From: Holdemanella sp. | Lineage (GTDB): Bacteria; Bacillota_I; Bacilli_A; Erysipelotrichales; Erysipelotrichaceae | NCBI GenBank assembly: GCA_021442845.1 | Contig: JABUSD010000306.1 | Span: 1-13,165 of the forward strand | DNA: 13,165 nt | Direction: 5' to 3' | Shown: piece by piece, positions 1,719 through 12,116 of the stretch | Position numbering within the stretch: the first letter of the stretch is position 1 | Layout: every line of letters begins with the position of its first letter | Notes under the pieces: generated by a model | The model's database searches: none | The model's input: only the letters and a program-made list of their open reading frames with translations | What the model was told of the DNA's origin: nothing | Made by a program: the position numbers and the translations under genes

Positions 1719-1743
1719 AAAACTCGGAGATTTCCGAGTTTTT
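1719..1743. terminator. Bidirectional intrinsic terminator between convergent genes
   Basis: The stem AAACTCGGA (1720-1728) pairs with TCCGAGTTT (1733-1741) around a GATT loop. An A-run lies before it and a T-run after it, so a hairpin with a U-tract forms on either strand. The plus-strand stop TAA (1713-1715) lies just before it, and the last bases of the minus-strand gene (stop at 1742-1744) overlap its edge. Confidence 0.9.
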
Positions 1744-3295
1744 ATAATAGCTGAGCAACAAAGCGAAGCAGAAGCTGTTTTACCTTAAGAACAGAACTTG
1801 TTCCTGTTGCATATTCTTCGCTGACATTATGGCTTTGGACAAGCATTTCTTCAAAATCGCTCTTAATATCAAAGACAGTTTCACAATTGCATAGGAAGAC
1901 ACCATCTTCAAAGTGGTGATATAAGCTACGATAATCCAGGTTGATTGTACCGCAGATAGCACGTTCATCATCGCTGACACACATTTTACAATGACAGAAG
2001 CCAGGCGTATATTCATAAATCTGAACACCATTTTTACATAAGACATGATAGTACGATCTTGTTACGCTATAGATGATTTTCTTATCAGGAATACCTGGTG
2101 TAATGATGCGGACATCCACACCACGCTTAGCCGCTACGGTAAAGGCGTGAATCATTTCATCAGTTAAGATTAGATAGGGTGTAACAAACCAGATATAATC
2201 TTTAGCCGCTTCAATCATGCTGATATAGACATTTTCAGCCAGCTTTTCATCTTTCATTGGAGTTTCCCCATAAGCATGAACATATCCATTCTCTGCGATT
2301 GGTTCCATATGGTTGATAAAGTATGTATTTTCATCAACGACTTTGTTCTTTTTCTTATCGGTAACAGCCCACATTTCAAGGAACATGCTCACAAAGTTAT
2401 TGACGATAGGACCTGTTAATTTTAATCCAGTATCTTTCCAGTATCCATAAGGCTTTTCAAGTCCAAAGTATTCATTGGCAATATTATATCCACCAGTAAA
2501 AGCGATTTCTCCATCGATAATTGTCATTTTTCGATGGTCACGGTTATTTAAGAATACATTCAATCCAGGAACAAAGGCATTGAATACGTGGCATTGGATG
2601 CCTTTTTTACGTAAGGCCTGGGCAAAGTCTGTATTTACAAATCCAATACTTCCTAAATCATCATAAACAACACGAACTTCAACGCCTTCTTTTACTTTTC
2701 TTTCAAGAACTTTTTCAACCATTTCCCAGCTATCTGAATTTTCTACCGCAAAATATTCCATAAAGATATATTTCTTTGCTTGTGACATCGCTTCAAGCTG
2801 TGCCTGTAGACCTTCCATACCAGTAGGATAATAAGCTATATCCTGTATTCTGTTTAACTGAAACCCACTTTGCGTCTTGATATAGTGGGAAATATTAGCC
2901 GAATATGGATTGATTTCATCTAGTTCACTTTCCAATCCATTCATTTCAATCAGCTTGGAAGTGTATTTATCATGAGCAAGAAGGAAACGTTTTTTCTTGC
3001 TTCTTAGCATTGGATTAAATCCAATCATTACATAAAGTAATACACCTGCAAGAGGGAATGTTCCAATGATCAGAATCCATGGCAGTTTGACAGTGGATGT
3101 CTTATCGGAACTATATAGATTGATAATAATGATAAAGGCTACAATTCTTGTGATAATCGCTATCCATTCTGCATATTTATTCAATCCAATAAAGATTGCA
3201 TAAATAATCAGAATTTCTATCAAAAAACCCAGTCCTACAACAACAACACGGGCTATTCCATTTTTTACCGATTTTTTCTTTTCAACAGTTAACAT
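1742..3295 (-). CDS. cls: Cardiolipin synthase (phospholipase D superfamily)
   Basis: This 517-residue protein has the usual length and layout of bacterial Cls. There are hydrophobic segments at about residues 15-37, 42-61 and 72-92, then two PLD domains. Both HxKxxxxD motifs are intact: H254-R-K256 to D261 and H435-C-K437 to D442, each followed by the typical glycine/asparagine strand (GGYN and GTINLD). By family knowledge it joins two phosphatidylglycerol molecules into cardiolipin and glycerol at the cytoplasmic membrane. The start ATG (3293-3295) is supported by GAGGA on the minus strand at 3302-3306. It has its own promoter and ends at a shared terminator, so it is monocistronic. Nothing in the sequence suggests damage. 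A PLD-type phospholipid synthase with other head-group acceptors is possible but less likely. Confidence 0.93.
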   Translation of the reverse strand: MLTVEKKKSVKNGIARVVVVGLGFLIEILIIYAIFIGLNKYAEWIAIITRIVAFIIIINLYSSDKTSTVKLPWILIIGTFPLAGVLLYVMIGFNPMLRSKKKRFLLAHDKYTSKLIEMNGLESELDEINPYSANISHYIKTQSGFQLNRIQDIAYYPTGMEGLQAQLEAMSQAKKYIFMEYFAVENSDSWEMVEKVLERKVKEGVEVRVVYDDLGSIGFVNTDFAQALRKKGIQCHVFNAFVPGLNVFLNNRDHRKMTIIDGEIAFTGGYNIANEYFGLEKPYGYWKDTGLKLTGPIVNNFVSMFLEMWAVTDKKKNKVVDENTYFINHMEPIAENGYVHAYGETPMKDEKLAENVYISMIEAAKDYIWFVTPYLILTDEMIHAFTVAAKRGVDVRIITPGIPDKKIIYSVTRSYYHVLCKNGVQIYEYTPGFCHCKMCVSDDERAICGTINLDYRSLYHHFEDGVFLCNCETVFDIKSDFEEMLVQSHNVSEEYATGTSSVLKVKQLLLRFVAQLL

Positions 3296-3575: not shown

Positions 3576-5099
<1,524 letters not shown>

Positions 5100-5375: not shown

Positions 5376-6038
5376 ATGAATCGATTTGAAAAAGGATTAT
5401 ATATAGGCTCTGTCTGTATTATTGTCATTTCCTTTCTTTATACAAAATCCAATGATTATTTAACTTTATTCGCATCATTAATAGGTGCTACCTTTTTAAT
5501 ATTAAATGCCAAAGGCAATGTATGGGGACAGGTATTAACGGTAGTCTTTAGTATACTCTATGGAATCATATCCTATCGCAATGCCTATTATGGAGAGATG
5601 ATTACCTATCTTGGTATGACAGCACCCATTGCCGCTATTTCTGTTTATACATGGTGGAAAAATCCATCAAAGGAAGATAAGAATGTTGTAAAGGTGAATC
5701 ATTTAAAGTTATCAGAATATATCTTTTTATTGATTATCAGTATTCCAATAACAGTATTGTTCTATTTTATATTGAAATATTTTCATACAAATGAATTGTA
5801 TTTGAGTACACTATCGGTATTTACCAGTTTTATCGCATCATATCTGACAATGCGAAGAAGTGAATATTATGCCATAGGCTATGCATCCAATGATGTAGTA
5901 TTAATAGCACTCTGGTATATTGCCACAAAAAAGAATCCAGAATATATGTCTGTACTCATCTGTTTTATTGTCTTTCTAATTAATGATTTATATGGATTTA
6001 TAAACTGGTCTAAAATGAAGAAATATCAGGAGAAATAA
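5376..6038 (+). CDS. pnuC: PnuC-type nicotinamide riboside / vitamin transporter
   Basis: This 220-residue, very hydrophobic protein has about seven predicted membrane segments. It shows the PnuC pattern: an N-terminal segment ending in LNAKGNVWGQ (residues 43-51), the LYGIISYRNAYYGEM stretch (61-75), a YTWW motif near 91-94, SNDVVLIALW (171-180) and a closing NDLYGFINW (203-211). By family knowledge PnuC proteins are facilitated channels for nicotinamide riboside; close relatives carry riboflavin or thiamine, and the substrate cannot be fixed here. The protein sits in the cytoplasmic membrane. There is no clear Shine-Dalgarno sequence before ATG 5376, unlike its neighbours, and only 22 bases separate the ATG from the upstream terminator's T-run. 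That leaves no room for an NAD- or vitamin-sensing riboswitch. The downstream phosphatase gene begins one base after its stop, so the two form an operon. Confidence 0.85.
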   Translation: MNRFEKGLYIGSVCIIVISFLYTKSNDYLTLFASLIGATFLILNAKGNVWGQVLTVVFSILYGIISYRNAYYGEMITYLGMTAPIAAISVYTWWKNPSKEDKNVVKVNHLKLSEYIFLLIISIPITVLFYFILKYFHTNELYLSTLSVFTSFIASYLTMRRSEYYAIGYASNDVVLIALWYIATKKNPEYMSVLICFIVFLINDLYGFINWSKMKKYQEK

Positions 6039-6039
6039 T

Positions 6040-6429
6040 ATGAAGAAAATTGCATTTATCTGTGTACATAATTCATGTAGGAGCCAGATGGCAGAATGTT
6101 TAGGAAAATACTATCTACAAGGTCTTTATGAATGCTATTCAGCAGGGACAGAGACAAAACCGATGATAAATCAGGATGCTGTTCAGATAATGAAAGAGAT
6201 GTATGGCATCGATATGGAAGTCAATGGACAATATAGTAAACGATTAAAGGATATACCCGATTGTGATTATTATATTTCAATGGGCTGTAATGTGACATGT
6301 CCATTCATTGGAAGAGATTTTGATGATAACTGGAGATTAGAAGATCCAACAGGTAAGAACAAAGAAGCTTTTATAGAAGTCATCAAAGAAATAGAAAAGA
6401 GGATATTGTATCTATATGAAGAAAAATAA
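6040..6429 (+). CDS. Low-molecular-weight phosphatase family protein, arsenate reductase (ArsC, thioredoxin-type)-like
   Basis: The protein has 129 residues, the standard length. The P-loop CVHNSCRS (Cys8 to Arg14, CX5R) is the catalytic signature of LMW tyrosine phosphatases and thioredoxin-coupled ArsC. The QMAE that follows is typical of the ArsC branch. A general-acid Asp is present in EDPTG (Asp102). Cys83 and Cys87 in MGCNVTCPF could be the redox pair of an arsenate reductase, though the spacing is CxxxC rather than the longer spacing of plasmid pI258 ArsC. No arsR, arsB or acr3 gene is near, so a phosphatase role stays possible. ATG 6040 follows the pnuC stop by one base, with AGGAG at 6028-6032 inside the pnuC end, which suggests translational coupling. 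Confidence 0.82.
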   Translation: MKKIAFICVHNSCRSQMAECLGKYYLQGLYECYSAGTETKPMINQDAVQIMKEMYGIDMEVNGQYSKRLKDIPDCDYYISMGCNVTCPFIGRDFDDNWRLEDPTGKNKEAFIEVIKEIEKRILYLYEEK

Positions 6430-6538
6430 AGTAACGGAAAAAAGCCTCATGATGGAATTATTAAAAGCGATACGAAAAGGAGAGATTTCCTTTGATGAGT
6501 ATGAAGATGAAGAAGATGATGATGAGGAAGAAGATTAA
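6416..6538 (+). CDS. 40-residue protein with polyacidic tail, unknown function
   Basis: ATG 6416 lies inside the end of the arsC-like gene, overlapping it by 14 bases, and opens a 40-codon frame to TAA 6536-6538. The first half is basic and helical-looking (MKKNKVTEKS, then LMMELLKAIRKGEI). Thirteen of the last 14 residues are Asp or Glu. An AGAGGA stretch (6398-6403) could serve as ribosome binding site at a long spacing of 12 bases; overlap with the upstream gene would favour coupled translation. The acidic tail might bind cations or a basic partner, but no function is claimed. It could be a chance frame in GAA/GAT-rich DNA. Confidence 0.45.
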   Translation: MKKNKVTEKSLMMELLKAIRKGEISFDEYEDEEDDDEEED

Positions 6539-6740
6539 AGGAACAATCTGTAAAGTCAAGGCGGAATTGATAGAAGATTCATTGATGCGATAAAAAGAAA
6601 GTAGGAAAGCGTATGGGAATTTTATATATCTCTAGTCAAAGATCGATTCAAAGCGGATTGGATTATCGGAAGAACAGGTACGAAACGAATTAATCAATAC
6701 ATTGGTTTATTATGAATTTGAAGATGATGAATGGTATTAG
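6495..6740 (+). pseudogene. Possible remnant of a small decayed gene
   Basis: One frame reads protein-like text broken by stops: a first part from ATG 6495 ending KVKAELIEDSLMR (stop 6591-6593), another stop at 6633-6635, then LSEEQVRNELINTLVYYEFE up to a stop at 6738-6740. A second frame fills the middle with MGILYISSQRSIQSG (6613 onward, with AGGA 7 bases before it). Shifting frame twice would give one continuous ~80-residue protein, as expected of a gene with two small indels. The upstream part overlaps the polyacidic ORF in another frame. No family is recognised. Otherwise 6539-6755 holds no terminator and no convincing promoter. Confidence 0.3.
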
Positions 6741-6755
6741 AAAAAGGAAAACTAT

Positions 6756-7496
6756 ATGAAATTTGAAGATAGAGTGCTTTATTATGAATTTCAATTGAAT
6801 GAAACAGATGATGAAGTGATTGATTATATACGAAAACATAAAAAAGAATTATCGGATATTCCGATAAAAACAATGGCTGATGAATTATATACAGTACCTA
6901 ATACGATTATGCGAGTGTGCAAGAAATTAGGGTATAAAGGATTTTCAGAACTAAAAGTATTAATCCGTAAAGAACTGGATGAGCAAGACAATCCCGATAT
7001 TATTATTGAAAAAGTACCAAAGAGTATTTCGAAAACAGTAAAATTGATCAATCATGATAAATTGCTGGAAGCAGCGGATCGAATCAAGAAATGTGACAGG
7101 TGTTATTTCATTGGAGTAGGGGATTCTACTTCGAGCTGCAATGCGATGGTAAGAAATTTAGAATGTCTAGAAAAGCGTACCAAAGCCTATTCCGATTATC
7201 ATGATATCGATTATAGAGCAGCTCATTGTAAATCCAATGACTTATTTATCTTTATCAGCGTATCTGGAAGCAATGAACGATTGAATGAAGCTGCTAAAGT
7301 GGCAAAGGAAAATGGAGCCTATGTCATTGCCTTAACGCATTTTTCAAGAAATAAGCTATCAACCATTGCGGATATGATTCTATATTTCTGGGGAGAGCCA
7401 TGTTTTGTGAATGGATATAATGTAACCGATCGTTTAGGCCTGGATTTATTATTAAGACAGCTATCAGAGGTATTCTGGAGGATATATTATCTATAG
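6756..7496 (+). CDS. RpiR/MurR-family transcriptional regulator (HTH + SIS)
   Basis: The 246-residue protein has an N-terminal RpiR-type helix-turn-helix (about residues 36-60: IKTMADELYTVPNTIMRVCKKLGYKG in two helices) followed by the usual GFSELK. A SIS phosphosugar-binding domain spans about 115-235, with the FIGVGDSTSS turn near 118-127 and the conserved ISVSGSNE core near 167-174. By family knowledge such proteins bind inverted repeats and answer to a phosphosugar. Its place immediately before the mannosylglycerate-type PTS and mannosidase genes suggests it controls them, probably sensing mannosylglycerate-6-phosphate or mannose-6-phosphate; this is inference. E. coli uses a GntR-type regulator (MngR) for the same pathway. 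AAGGA at 6744-6748 supports ATG 6756. It is followed by its own terminator. Confidence 0.88.
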   Translation: MKFEDRVLYYEFQLNETDDEVIDYIRKHKKELSDIPIKTMADELYTVPNTIMRVCKKLGYKGFSELKVLIRKELDEQDNPDIIIEKVPKSISKTVKLINHDKLLEAADRIKKCDRCYFIGVGDSTSSCNAMVRNLECLEKRTKAYSDYHDIDYRAAHCKSNDLFIFISVSGSNERLNEAAKVAKENGAYVIALTHFSRNKLSTIADMILYFWGEPCFVNGYNVTDRLGLDLLLRQLSEVFWRIYYL

Positions 7497-7522
7497 GATG
7501 TGTATTTATACACATCTTTTTT
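7497..7522 (+). terminator. Intrinsic terminator after the RpiR-family gene
   Basis: A perfect 8-bp stem GATGTGTA (7497-7504) / TACACATC (7509-7516) with a TTTA loop is followed by six T. It starts right after the TAG stop and separates the regulator from the PTS transcription unit. Confidence 0.92.
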
Positions 7523-7562
7523 CATGTTTTTTGTATCTTCGTGAATGATTTTTAATATTAAA

Positions 7563-7588
7563 GGATTAAAAAAAATCCATGTTATAGT
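7563..7588 (+). promoter_or_regulatory. Extended -10 promoter with inverted-repeat candidate operator for mngAB
   Basis: TGT-TATAGT (7580-7588) is an extended -10 element whose hexamer matches the consensus at 5 of 6; no good -35 is present, as is common for such promoters. The inverted repeat GGATT-N6-AATCC (7563-7578) sits immediately upstream, just where a repressor or activator would act. The first transcribed bases (from about 7595) carry a GC-rich run with the small palindrome GGGACCC (7607-7613), a second operator possibility. Binding by the RpiR protein is inference. Confidence 0.5.
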
Positions 7589-7640
7589 ATGACTGTAGAT
7601 GGAACCGGGACCCATAAACAGACATGAAGGAGAACAAAAT

Positions 7641-8786
7641 ATGAACTTATCAACTTTGACAAATAAGAATCTAGTTGTATTAAATAGCGATTTAAACACA
7701 AAGGAAAGTATTATTGAAGCATTGATCACAAAACTATATGAAGATGGAAAAATCACATCAAAAGAAGCTTTCCAAAAGGCAGTATATTATCGTGAATCTT
7801 TAACACCAACAGGCATTGATCAGGGATTAGCCATTCCACATGGAAAAGATGCCAGTGTAAAAGAAGCAAGCTTTGCGGTTATGACATTAAAGAATCCAGT
7901 GAATGGATGGGAAAGCGTTGTAGAAGGAAACAAAGTAAAGTATGTCTTCCTATTAGCCATTCCAGAAAAGGATGAAGAAGGAACACAGATGCAGCTATTG
8001 GCAGAAATGATGAAGAAGATGTCCAATGAAGCCTATACAAATGCATTGTATAAATCAACAACAGTGGAAGAATTCATTCGTAAACTGGATAGGGACACAG
8101 AAGCCAATGTAACAAAGAAATATGATAAATCCATTGTAGCTGTTACAGCATGTGCAGCCGGAATTGCGCATACATATATGGCAGCAGAAGCATTAATAAA
8201 AGCAGGAGAAGAAATGGGAGTTAGCGTTTATGTAGAGAAGCAGGGAGCTAACGGAATTGAAGATCGCCACACAAATGAAATGTTGAAGAATGCCGATGCA
8301 GCCATCTTTGCGGTCGATGTAGCGGTTAAAGAAGAAAGCCGATTTGCGCATTTGCCAACCGTAAAGACAAAGGTATCCGCTCCATTAAAGGATGCGAAAG
8401 GAATTATTAAACAGGCTTTGGATAAGGCAAGCCAGACGAAAAAAGGAGAGTATGTAGAAACAATGGAAACAAGAGATGAAGGATTTGTTCAGACCGTAAA
8501 GGCATCTGTATTAACAGGAATTTCCCATGTAGTACCACTAATCGTAGCCGGAGGTATGATCTCTGCACTATGTACCATCTTTGCCAGAATGTTTGGCATG
8601 GTTGATGTGTTATCAACAGAAGGAACCTGGCTATATCTGATTAAAAATATGGGTGGAGGCCTTCTAGGAACATTGATGGTTCCCGTATTATCAGCTTATA
8701 TGGCGTATTCGATTGCCGATAAACCAGCATTTGCACCAGGATTTGCAGCCGGTTATTGTGCAGGAATGATCAATGGTGGATTCTGA
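7641..8786 (+). CDS. N-terminal piece of the MngA-type permease: IIA, IIB and start of IIC
   Basis: This frame codes for 381 residues as read. The IIA domain (about 1-150) has the phosphorylated histidine in AIPHGKD (His67). The IIB domain (about 164-262) has the phosphocysteine loop VTACAAGIAHTYMAAE (Cys171) and the VEKQGANGIE strand (198-207). IIC begins near 285 (VLTGISHVVPLIVAGG) and stops after GMINGGF at 381, leaving about three membrane segments. If no read-through occurs, the product could still pass phosphate from HPr through IIA and IIB but would lack most of the channel. Confidence 0.85.
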   Translation: MNLSTLTNKNLVVLNSDLNTKESIIEALITKLYEDGKITSKEAFQKAVYYRESLTPTGIDQGLAIPHGKDASVKEASFAVMTLKNPVNGWESVVEGNKVKYVFLLAIPEKDEEGTQMQLLAEMMKKMSNEAYTNALYKSTTVEEFIRKLDRDTEANVTKKYDKSIVAVTACAAGIAHTYMAAEALIKAGEEMGVSVYVEKQGANGIEDRHTNEMLKNADAAIFAVDVAVKEESRFAHLPTVKTKVSAPLKDAKGIIKQALDKASQTKKGEYVETMETRDEGFVQTVKASVLTGISHVVPLIVAGGMISALCTIFARMFGMVDVLSTEGTWLYLIKNMGGGLLGTLMVPVLSAYMAYSIADKPAFAPGFAAGYCAGMINGGF

Positions 8787-8792
8787 GCGGGT

Positions 8793-9527
8793 ATGTTAGG
8801 AGGTATCCTGGCTGGTTATGCAACACGTTATGTAAAGAAATATATCCCTGCAAAAGGAACATTTGCTGGATTTGTAAGCTTTGTGGTATATCCAGTACTT
8901 ACTACATTGCTTGTTGGTGTTGTGATGCTGCTGATTCTAGGTAAACCAGTGGCTATGTTAAATCAGGCATTATTAAATATCTTAACATCACTATCAGGTG
9001 GAAATGCGGCTCTATTGGGTGCCATCATTGGAATCATGGTTTCCTTTGACTTAGGAGGACCTGTCAATAAAGCGGCTTATGCATTCTGTGTGGCTGCCAT
9101 GGCAGAAGGTGTATTGATGCCATATGCGGCATTCGCATCCATCAAGATGGTATCTGCTTTCTCTTGTACAATCGCAACAAAAATTCGTAAAGACTTATTC
9201 ACAGAAGATGAAATCGCAGCTGGTAACTCTACATGGTTACTAGGACTTGCAGGAATTACCGAAGGTGCAATTCCATTCATGATGGCAGATCCACTAAGAG
9301 TTATCTTCTCATTCTGTACAGGATCCGCTGTATGTGGAGCTATCGTAGCTATGTTCAATATCGGATTGGATGTACCAGGAGCTGGAATCTTCTCTCTATT
9401 CGTATTAAAAGGACCATCATTAGGATTTGCGATGGCTGTATGGCTAGGGGCTGCTATTGTAGGAGCTATCATCTCATCGGTATTACTGATTGTATTAAGA
9501 AAACAGAAATTATCAAAAGAAAAATAA
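8793..9527 (+). CDS. C-terminal piece of the MngA-type permease: remainder of IIC
   Basis: The frame continues directly after the TGA (AGMLGGILAGY) and stays open for 246 codons. It holds the most conserved IIC parts: SFDLGGPVNKAAYAF and the GLAGITEGAIPF motif that lines the sugar site in fructose/mannitol-type IIC, then NIGLDVPGAGIFSL. The first ATG is at 8793, but no Shine-Dalgarno sequence precedes it, so a separately translated product is unlikely unless termination-reinitiation occurs at the nearby TGA. Confidence 0.7.
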   Translation: MLGGILAGYATRYVKKYIPAKGTFAGFVSFVVYPVLTTLLVGVVMLLILGKPVAMLNQALLNILTSLSGGNAALLGAIIGIMVSFDLGGPVNKAAYAFCVAAMAEGVLMPYAAFASIKMVSAFSCTIATKIRKDLFTEDEIAAGNSTWLLGLAGITEGAIPFMMADPLRVIFSFCTGSAVCGAIVAMFNIGLDVPGAGIFSLFVLKGPSLGFAMAVWLGAAIVGAIISSVLLIVLRKQKLSKEK

Positions 9528-9545
9528 AGAAAGGAGTGTATGACA

Positions 9546-12116
9546 ATGGCACAACAAGTTCATATCGTACCACATTGTCATTGGGATAGAGAATGGTATT
9601 TCTCTTGTGAAGAATCAAAATACCTGTTGTTGAACAACATGGATGAAATCTTTGAAATGCTGGAAACAAGAGATGACTATCCATGTTACATTCTAGATGG
9701 ACAGACGGCGATTCTGGAAGACTACTTTCAATATAAACCGGAGAACAAGGCTCGTTTCAAAAGCCTTGTTCAACAAGGTAAACTTCGCATAGGACCATGG
9801 TATACCCAAACCGATGCGATGGTAGTAGGTGGTGAATCCATCACTAGAAATCTTCTCTATGGACATAAAGACTGCAAAGAGTTTGGTCAGATTATGAAAA
9901 TAGGATATCTGCCTGATTCCTTTGGACAATCAAGCCAGATGCCAATGATTCTAAATGGATTTGGTATCCATCGAAGCATGTTCTGGCGAGGAACAAGCGA
10001 AAGGATGGGAACCAATAAAACGGAATTCTATCATGAAAGCGCCGATGGATCCAAAGTATTATGCCAGCTTTTACCACTAGGATATGCCATTGGTAAATAC
10101 CTTCCCCAGGAAAAAGAGGCATTGGCACTACGCTGTTCAAAATATATGCCTGTTCTAGATCGCGGAGCTACATCCGATCATATTCTTGTACCAAATGGAC
10201 ATGACCAGATGCCAATCCAGAAGAATATTTTTGAAGTCATGATGACATTAAAGGAAATCTATCCAGAAAAGCATTTCTTCTTAAGTGATTATGAAAGCGT
10301 ATTTGAAGAATTGGAAAAGAAAAAGGATTATGCAACATTAAAAGGAGAATTCCTGGATGGAAAGTATATGCGTGTCCATCGCTCCATCTATTCATCAAGA
10401 GCCGATATTAAAAGTTTAAATACACGTATTGAATATAAGCTTACAAATATATTAGAACCACTCGCAACCATCGCCCATTCTTTAGGATTTGATTATTTCG
10501 ATGGAGCAATTGAAAGAATCTGGAAGGATATCATGAAAAACCATGCCCATGATTCCATTGGATGCTGCTGCAGTGATAAAGTCCATAAAGAAATCGTATC
10601 TCGTTTTACGCTTGCAGAAGAAAAGATTGATCAGATGATCACTTTCTATAAAAGAAAGATTGTTGATGCGATGTCTTTAGATCTATCATTGGATAAGTTA
10701 AGTGCATTCAATCTATTGCCATATGAAAAGAAAGGTGTCATTAAAGGACAATTCATCACAAGAATGAAAGGATTTGAAATCGTAGATGAAAATAAGAATC
10801 CAATTTCATTTAATGTTATCCATAAAGAAATAGTGGATGCAGGATTGATTGATCGACAGATTGTCCACTATGGAAACTATGATCCATTTGTGAAATATGA
10901 AATCGAATTCATAGATACATTACCCGCTATGGGATATAAGACATATTTCATTTTAGAATCAGAAAAAGAATATGATGTTGAATATATCGAAGGAAATGCA
11001 TTGGATAATGAATATTATCATATTGATATCCATGAAAATGGAACATTGAAGATTCTTGATAAAGTACGAAATACAACCTATGATAACGTGTTATTAATGG
11101 AAGATGGAAGTGATGATGGCGATAGCTATGATTATTCACCCCTAGAAAAGGATTGGATCCTGACATCCGAAAATTGTAAAGCGGATGTATCCATTCAAAA
11201 GAATGTATATAGTGATATCGCAAAAATATCATTGGATATGCACATTTCAAAAGATCTTGAAGAAAGAATCAATCATCAGATGACAGGAATGGTTCATTTT
11301 GATATACAGATTACTTTACAGAAACAATCCGATAGTATCGATATCAGGACAACTATCCATAACCAGGCAAAAGATCATAGAGTAAGAATGATATTGCCTA
11401 TGAATATTTCATCAAAGACAACACTCGCTGATAATCCATTTGGCACAATCGAAAGATCCATTGTCGATAGCGCTATGGAAGTCTGGGAAAAGGAGAAATG
11501 GAGTGAAAGACCTGATTCCATCTATCCAATGTTAAGCTTTGTAAAGATGAAGGAAGACAATCTATCTTTTATAACTAACTCAATCCGTGAATATGAAGCC
11601 ATTGATGAAAATACATTATCCATCACATTATTCAGATCGATTGGTTATCTAGGAAAGGAAAATCTTGTCAGACGACCAGGAAGACCATCTGGAATCAAGA
11701 TGGAAATCCCAGATTCACAGATGATAGGTACTTATACATTTGATTTTGCCTTAACATGCCAGAGTAATGAAACAATCGCAAAGACATCAAAGGAATATTT
11801 AACACCTGTCATTACATACAATAAGATGCCTTATAATGCGATGAAGTTAAATATACCAAAGGTAAAGACACCATATCAATATAGTTTATTGAATATTCAA
11901 AATGATGGATTCATTCTAAGTGCATTAAAATTATCAGAAAATAAGGAAGGATATATAGTAAGAGGATATAATCCAACCAGTCATCCTATAGAGGTTGATA
12001 TTGTATCACCTTATCATAAACACAACACAAATCTGAATGAAGAAATCATCCAATCCAATGTTCAGATGGTATCCATTGTACCAAATCAGGTAAAAACCGT
12101 TTTCTTATCGAAATAA
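9546..12116 (+). CDS. mngB: GH38 alpha-mannosidase, mannosylglycerate hydrolase (MngB) type
   Basis: The protein has 856 residues from ATG 9546, the usual size for MngB. This start is preferred over ATG 9540 because AAGGAG (9531-9536) is 9 bases from 9546 but only 3 from 9540. The GH38 zinc and catalytic residues are present: HCHWDREW (zinc ligands His12 and Asp14), GYLPDSFGQS (nucleophile Asp124), and NHAHDSIGCCCSD (zinc ligand His335, Asp336). Blocks that I recall as shared with E. coli MngB include LDGQTAILEDYF, IGPWYTQTD, LPLGYAIGKYLP, LIDRQIVHYGNYDPF and RPGRPSGIKM, so the mannosylglycerate branch is favoured over general alpha-mannosidases. It would act in the cytoplasm (no signal peptide), cleaving 6-phospho-mannosylglycerate to mannose-6-phosphate and glycerate. 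The gene starts 18 bases after the permease stop, and a terminator ends the operon. No damage is visible. Confidence 0.92.
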   Translation: MAQQVHIVPHCHWDREWYFSCEESKYLLLNNMDEIFEMLETRDDYPCYILDGQTAILEDYFQYKPENKARFKSLVQQGKLRIGPWYTQTDAMVVGGESITRNLLYGHKDCKEFGQIMKIGYLPDSFGQSSQMPMILNGFGIHRSMFWRGTSERMGTNKTEFYHESADGSKVLCQLLPLGYAIGKYLPQEKEALALRCSKYMPVLDRGATSDHILVPNGHDQMPIQKNIFEVMMTLKEIYPEKHFFLSDYESVFEELEKKKDYATLKGEFLDGKYMRVHRSIYSSRADIKSLNTRIEYKLTNILEPLATIAHSLGFDYFDGAIERIWKDIMKNHAHDSIGCCCSDKVHKEIVSRFTLAEEKIDQMITFYKRKIVDAMSLDLSLDKLSAFNLLPYEKKGVIKGQFITRMKGFEIVDENKNPISFNVIHKEIVDAGLIDRQIVHYGNYDPFVKYEIEFIDTLPAMGYKTYFILESEKEYDVEYIEGNALDNEYYHIDIHENGTLKILDKVRNTTYDNVLLMEDGSDDGDSYDYSPLEKDWILTSENCKADVSIQKNVYSDIAKISLDMHISKDLEERINHQMTGMVHFDIQITLQKQSDSIDIRTTIHNQAKDHRVRMILPMNISSKTTLADNPFGTIERSIVDSAMEVWEKEKWSERPDSIYPMLSFVKMKEDNLSFITNSIREYEAIDENTLSITLFRSIGYLGKENLVRRPGRPSGIKMEIPDSQMIGTYTFDFALTCQSNETIAKTSKEYLTPVITYNKMPYNAMKLNIPKVKTPYQYSLLNIQNDGFILSALKLSENKEGYIVRGYNPTSHPIEVDIVSPYHKHNTNLNEEIIQSNVQMVSIVPNQVKTVFLSK

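Follow-up and report, generated by a model that had tools for sequence, protein, structure and literature searches.

An accessory mannosylglycerate operon in an uncultured Erysipelotrichales bacterium carries an in-frame stop codon in its PTS permease gene, mngA, and we consider this gene to be probably a natural, young nonsense allele. The best reading of the data is a recent and recurrent loss of the operon: the stop codon is real, the frame past it is undecayed, and the closest orthologue in the genomes examined is interrupted by a different, independently arisen TGA. The stretch of DNA analyzed here (the window) is 13,165 bases long and is the whole of contig C26 of a fragmented metagenome-assembled genome (MAG; 2.2 Mb in 430 contigs, with 90% completeness and 5% contamination), here referred to as G000.

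The operon genes in the window follow the order rpiR-mngA-mngB, all on the forward strand. The upstream gene (6756 to 7496) encodes an RpiR/MurR-type transcriptional regulator with HTH_6 and SIS domains, both above gathering score (PF01418 and PF01380). The full mngA frame comprises 628 codons, from the ATG at 7641 to the TAA at 9525, and specifies an MngA-type PTS IIABC protein. This ATG is preceded by an AAGGAG sequence and is also where close homologues start (with MNLS, MELS, or MKLS); the mechanical listing of open reading frames places the start at 7599, 14 codons earlier. Directly downstream of mngA lies mngB (9540 to 12116), which encodes a GH38 mannosylglycerate hydrolase with N, middle, and C domains and matches NF007331 at 1126.1 bits (E of 0), slightly under the cutoff of 1138. 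Its frame is open from end to end, as the preliminary description of this DNA had reported for the downstream mannosidase. Enzyme I of the PTS was found in G000, so an intact MngA could be energized. Between the regulator and mngA, a terminator-like hairpin with a T tail spans 7495 to 7518, on account of which mngA may have a promoter of its own; two terminator-like sites were found in positions 6400 to 9700, compared with 1.8 expected in shuffled sequences.

The single TGA that the preliminary description had placed within the permease is present at 8784 to 8786, as codon 382 of mngA. Counted from the ATG at 7641 to the TAA at 9525 to 9527, the frame is open for 381 codons before it (7641 to 8783) and 246 codons after it (8787 to 9527), which agrees with the earlier counts, and the GITEGAIPF motif noted at that stage is indeed part of the gene. 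The 5′ part encodes complete IIA and IIB domains, both above gathering score (PF00359, 1.4e-34; PF02302, 1.6e-18), and approximately the first 100 residues of IIC; the 3′ part, which encodes the rest of IIC, scores above the cutoff of TIGR01427. One NCBIfam model of 639 positions, NF007293 (PTS 2-O-a-mannosyl-D-glycerate IIABC), covers both halves, aligning at positions 2 to 382 with the first and at 386 to 630 with the piece that begins at an ATG at 8793; the two pieces score 481.2 and 358.3 bits, respectively, each far under the cutoff of 763. The locus thus resembles known MngA in the alignment of its pieces and in the adjoining hydrolase gene, but it differs in that IIC is not encoded uninterrupted in one frame.

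The interrupted site is strongly conserved. Leu occupies it in 119 of the 120 homologues listed, in line with the earlier expectation of a hydrophobic residue in relatives, and the remaining homologue (P0053) ends there. Relatives encode this Leu by different codons, so more than one ancestral codon for the window is compatible with the data. Judged by hydropathy only, a hydrophobic segment of IIC spans about residues 367 to 391, and the break lies within it. A scan of 618,275 bases of G000, drawn from the window and parts of 40 other contigs, looked for a lone stop flanked on both sides by coding-like sequence in the same frame and yielded 34 candidates (16 TAA, 15 TAG, and 3 TGA). Judged by eye rather than by homology, most resemble junctions between genes, where a start codon closely follows the stop, and mngA is the sole recognizable break within one conserved gene among the three TGA candidates.

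Decay of the gene was assessed against 51 full-length reference rows, in which conservation reaches 95% or more at 268 of 626 columns. With the stop column left out, 267 conserved columns remain, of which 2 deviate in the window (N375G and E526A) and 0 to 4 deviate in the intact relatives P0001 to P0008. Past the break, 1 of 125 highly conserved columns is changed in the window, compared with 0 to 2 in the eight intact relatives; the excess of changes expected downstream of the break in a decayed pseudogene is therefore absent from the window. The 3′ half is undecayed, which points either to a young break or to continued protection of the frame, for instance by some read-through. From the two hits, the number of neutral amino acid changes since the break can be bounded at about 15 (one-sided 95%, a rough estimate). 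The ratio of pN between the 3′ and 5′ parts was considered as a sign of decay and set aside: it is 0.70 to 0.78 in pairs that involve the window or the orthologue described below and 0.46 to 0.67 in intact pairs, but with more protein rows the whole ingroup, intact members included, lies at 0.67 to 0.79, so the ratio is not used as evidence of decay here. For mngB, at columns invariant in at least four other sequences, the window and that same orthologous locus each deviate at 9 of 189, one intact relative (L033) deviates at 8 of 188, and the rest deviate at 0 to 7; with only part of the sequence in three rows, and with L033 and L098 representing a single gene, this margin is too small to interpret.

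The closest orthologue in the genomes examined, with 81% protein identity, belongs to another family of the same order. It is carried by uncultured Firmicutes bacterium SI.B24 bin 66 (G059), on contig C51 (CASETM010000051.1; loci L003 and L095), in the same rpiR-mngA-mngB order. A DNA stretch that is 67% identical to the window regulator lies upstream of mngA, and mngB downstream of it is open and encodes a protein 71% identical to that of the window. Like the window gene, the G059 gene has one in-frame TGA in IIC; unlike the window gene, its TGA is at codon 410, it has Leu at codon 382, and it shows more changes at conserved positions. The two stops arose independently. The piece past the G059 stop (P0125) is listed from three contigs, and intact copies approximately 98% identical to G059 mngA are represented by P0002 and P0003.

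The G059 gene is truly decaying. Besides its stop it has 6 deviations at conserved columns, and it shows the excess of changes past the break that the window lacks. Of its 12 differences from intact P0002, 6 affect columns with 95% or greater conservation, whereas this holds for 1 of the 42 differences between the intact P0001 and P0002. Counting deviations on either side, the comparison is 7 of 12 for G059 and P0002 versus 1 of 42 for P0001 and P0002 (Fisher test, P = 3e-5, for a comparison picked post hoc). The preliminary description had named decay of the C-terminal half in relatives as a finding that would speak against its reading; G059, with its own TGA and its decay, answers loosely to that, but it belongs to another family.

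The gene is sparsely distributed. Among 315 genomes of the order, five (G000, G059, G072, G074, and G076) have a match to mngA at an E value of ≤1e-130, and none of the four genomes of the same genus does. Given this patchiness, the rpiR-mngA-mngB operon appears to be accessory, and it may have been transferred between families, as the nearest relative examined is in another family. A plasmid search at an E value of ≤1e-100 returned a single distant mngA, from Exiguobacterium, at 48%.

These observations are most simply accommodated by a young loss. Translation would normally end at codon 382, within the hydrophobic segment of IIC, yielding a IIA-IIB-partial-IIC fragment that would probably not form the membrane channel; with the stop inside IIC, the substrate should be neither transported nor phosphorylated, and phosphorylating uptake would be abolished or almost abolished. 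The 3′ frame may have had too little time yet to decay, and an accessory operon whose closest examined orthologue is independently broken and decaying could well be dispensable. MngB, if made at all, would be left without its substrate supply, and the operon would be uncoupled, as judged from a hydrolase frame that remains open beside a predicted loss of uptake. That transport is lost, that the operon is dispensable, and that the break is recent we infer, whereas the stop, its recurrence in another contig, the ordinary genetic code, the undecayed frame, and the separate decayed allele of G059 are observed. Of the four options raised in the preliminary description (very recent loss, reversible switch, read-through, and error), very recent loss is the best supported, although a polymorphism with an intact allele was not seen among the listed representatives. 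Two points weigh against young loss: the absence of relaxed evolution in the 3′ half also fits a frame still in use, and no intact allele of the species is listed among representatives of 90% clusters, in which the P0053 cluster has three members.

The observations just named are also what favors leaky read-through of the UGA, by which near-cognate decoding (as Trp, for example) would yield a little full-length permease, the 3′ half would remain under selection, and the stop would act as a dimmer. We hold this to be rather unlikely. In its support, the 3′ half is undecayed, the stop allele is the only one listed for the species, and Belinky et al. 2021 (PMC7918605) find many in-frame stops with dN/dS of <1, describe UGA as leaky, and cite 6% read-through for a catA86-TGA reporter when the host is prfB+. 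A merely young stop accounts for the same data, however; the residue replaced is a near-invariant Leu, the G059 allele decays, and the hairpin downstream of the TGA is no stronger than those in shuffled sequences (z of −0.44) and has a counterpart in the intact gene of G072 (L097). A tRNA-Trp with a short anticodon stem is one route to UGA read-through according to a 2026 paper (PMC13092985); the tRNA genes of the MAG (11 matches) are too incomplete a set in which to look for suppressors, and no tRNA-Trp is among those typed. The wider notion that the TGA is being kept, with the operon tuned down and the 3′ frame selected because either low levels of full-length MngA arise by read-through or two cooperating pieces are made by way of the ATG at 8793, we think unlikely.

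An error of sequencing, assembly, or strain mixing in the metagenome, which the preliminary description had also entertained, appears quite improbable and is disfavored by sequences from other contigs. P0053, listed with a 1,899-base contig, is a first piece of 395 residues that stops at the same codon as the window and differs from it by one residue (D to A at frame residue 222). It is therefore a distinct sequence with the same end. P0121, a second piece of 244 residues, is listed for two contigs, neither longer than 7,805 bases. The same stop is thus found in separate sequences, and an error limited to one assembly fails as an explanation. The column of the D-to-A change is otherwise N, D, or H, so the change is a weak hint of relaxed constraint, or else an error. 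In addition, obviously broken genes, as judged by eye, were not numerous in the 618-kb scan, and the tetranucleotide makeup of the window is within the spread of the other sampled contigs of the MAG. On the other side, G000 is a fragmented and partly contaminated MAG, and a single sample may have yielded all the contigs that share this stop. No intact copy of mngA, full-length or near full-length, with >84% identity was found among the matches listed for queries with the whole gene and with the first half; these were the best 120, as representatives of 90% clusters, such that an intact copy within a cluster could be missed.

The possibility that the contig was misbinned was considered as well and rejected. 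The tetranucleotide distance of the window from the mean of the 40 other sampled G000 contigs is 0.120, within their spread of 0.067 to 0.276, and seven tested G059 contigs lie at 0.196 to 0.245, above the window; one G000 contig (L068, 0.276) lies beyond all seven. In favor of misbinning are the absence of mngA from the same-genus genomes and the lack of a strong match there to a neighboring cardiolipin synthase gene.

A permease in two pieces, with termination at the UGA, reinitiation at the ATG at 8793 to 8795, and assembly of the resulting 244-residue IIC half with the 381-codon part, is very improbable. This ATG, a conserved native Met on the forward strand, is the nearest in-frame start downstream and lies 6 bases past the TGA; P0121 begins there, as do seven other listed fragments from a length-biased set. 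However, the break lies within a hydrophobic segment (approximately residues 367 to 391, by hydropathy) rather than in a loop, which speaks against a permease divided at this point. No good Shine-Dalgarno sequence precedes the ATG (by eye), the only candidate being a GGTGGA approximately 11 bases away, and the mngA halves are fused in the four intact relatives read as DNA (L033 and L096 to L098, of which L033 and L098, the latter from G076, are the same sequence). A search with the C-terminal half returned 8 proteins, among the 120 listed, that start at the conserved Met (the window's own P0121 and seven others, P0127, P0128, P0132, P0133, P0135, P0137, and P0159); these starts may reflect length bias together with contig edges, or repeated breaks just upstream.

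Recoding, whether of UGA as Trp throughout the genome or as selenocysteine at the mngA site, is extremely unlikely. TGA is an ordinary stop codon in G000: of 330 long open reading frames in the 618,275 bases, 204 end in TAA, 85 in TAG, and 41 in TGA, on which ground a genome-wide change to code 4 was rejected. For selenocysteine, there is a tRNA-Sec gene (anticodon TCA; 69.8 bits) on contig C32 (L070, 1362 to 1458), and a hairpin with a GGUA loop lies 3′ of the UGA, with 15 bases from the UGA to the loop. Against it, SelA has zero matches in G000 (90% complete) and none above the cutoff in 60 genomes, G000 included, and SelB has no match above the cutoff in G000, the best match being IF-2. A similar hairpin occurs without UGA in G072, so the structure is not peculiar to the interrupted gene, and homologues have Leu at the site, not Cys or Trp. 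The tRNA-Sec gene sits on a contig end of 46 to 51% GC, and the rest of that contig has 29 to 40% GC. Matches over the 47-bit threshold were found in 3 of the 60 genomes, but no second one is equally strong (48.5 and 48.3 bits for the other two). The locus is possibly a chimera, a contaminant, or an orphan gene.

A reversible switch, suggested in the preliminary description, finds no support, as only three weak, chance-like repeat pairs (79 to 86% alike, 14 to 20 bases long) lie within 500 bases of the TGA. A 32-base pattern over the stop had no match in the viral_contigs scan.

An in-frame stop of this sort is of a known kind. Belinky et al. 2021 (PMC7918605) describe in-frame stops in bacterial genes as widespread and for the most part short-lived, frequently with purifying selection on the sequence around them, and place carbohydrate transport and metabolism among the two categories that rank next in abundance behind the mobilome. 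The window matches that description as a single nonsense codon with a conserved frame on both sides. Their paper centers, however, on stops shared at one position by at least two species, whereas here two families have stops at different codons, one gene undecayed and the other decayed. Most worth retaining is the pairing of independent stops in two orthologues, one of them fresh and the other in decay. Loss of mngA is not mentioned in the titles and opening lines of abstracts of the papers retrieved on mngA with mannosylglycerate or on mannosylglycerate phosphotransferase transport in Firmicutes. The window offers a clean example of the loss of a sugar operon caught early, in a copy broken yet undamaged. 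Together with the decaying G059 gene and the approximately 98% identical intact P0002 and P0003, it forms a small natural series with which to ask whether in-frame stops in bacterial transporters are terminal, can be reversed, or serve as dimmers. It is also a warning for annotation, as mngB and a regulator can adjoin a transporter that is probably nonfunctional.

Nine other PTS loci with in-frame stops were read (L004, L007, L017, L018, L020, and L026 to L029). None has a stop near the IIC site of the window; their stops lie at gene ends, before starts, or at domain or gene junctions, with the exception of one stop in the IIA part of L017.

The cardiolipin synthase encoded at 1742 to 3295 has no match at an E value of ≤1e-130 in the four same-genus genomes, and its best relative among 60 genomes is 44% identical; given this lack of close relatives, the contig would seem to be largely accessory or divergent. 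At 3597 to 5099 is encoded a GH1 6-phospho-beta-glucosidase-like protein that scores below the cutoffs of all four 6-phospho-beta-glucosidase models; its best model stretch starts only at residue 82 to 84, and its N-terminal region looks longer than usual. A PnuC-type transporter (5376 to 6038) is directly followed by a low-molecular-weight phosphatase or arsenate-reductase-like protein (6040 to 6429), and the two genes possibly form a pair.
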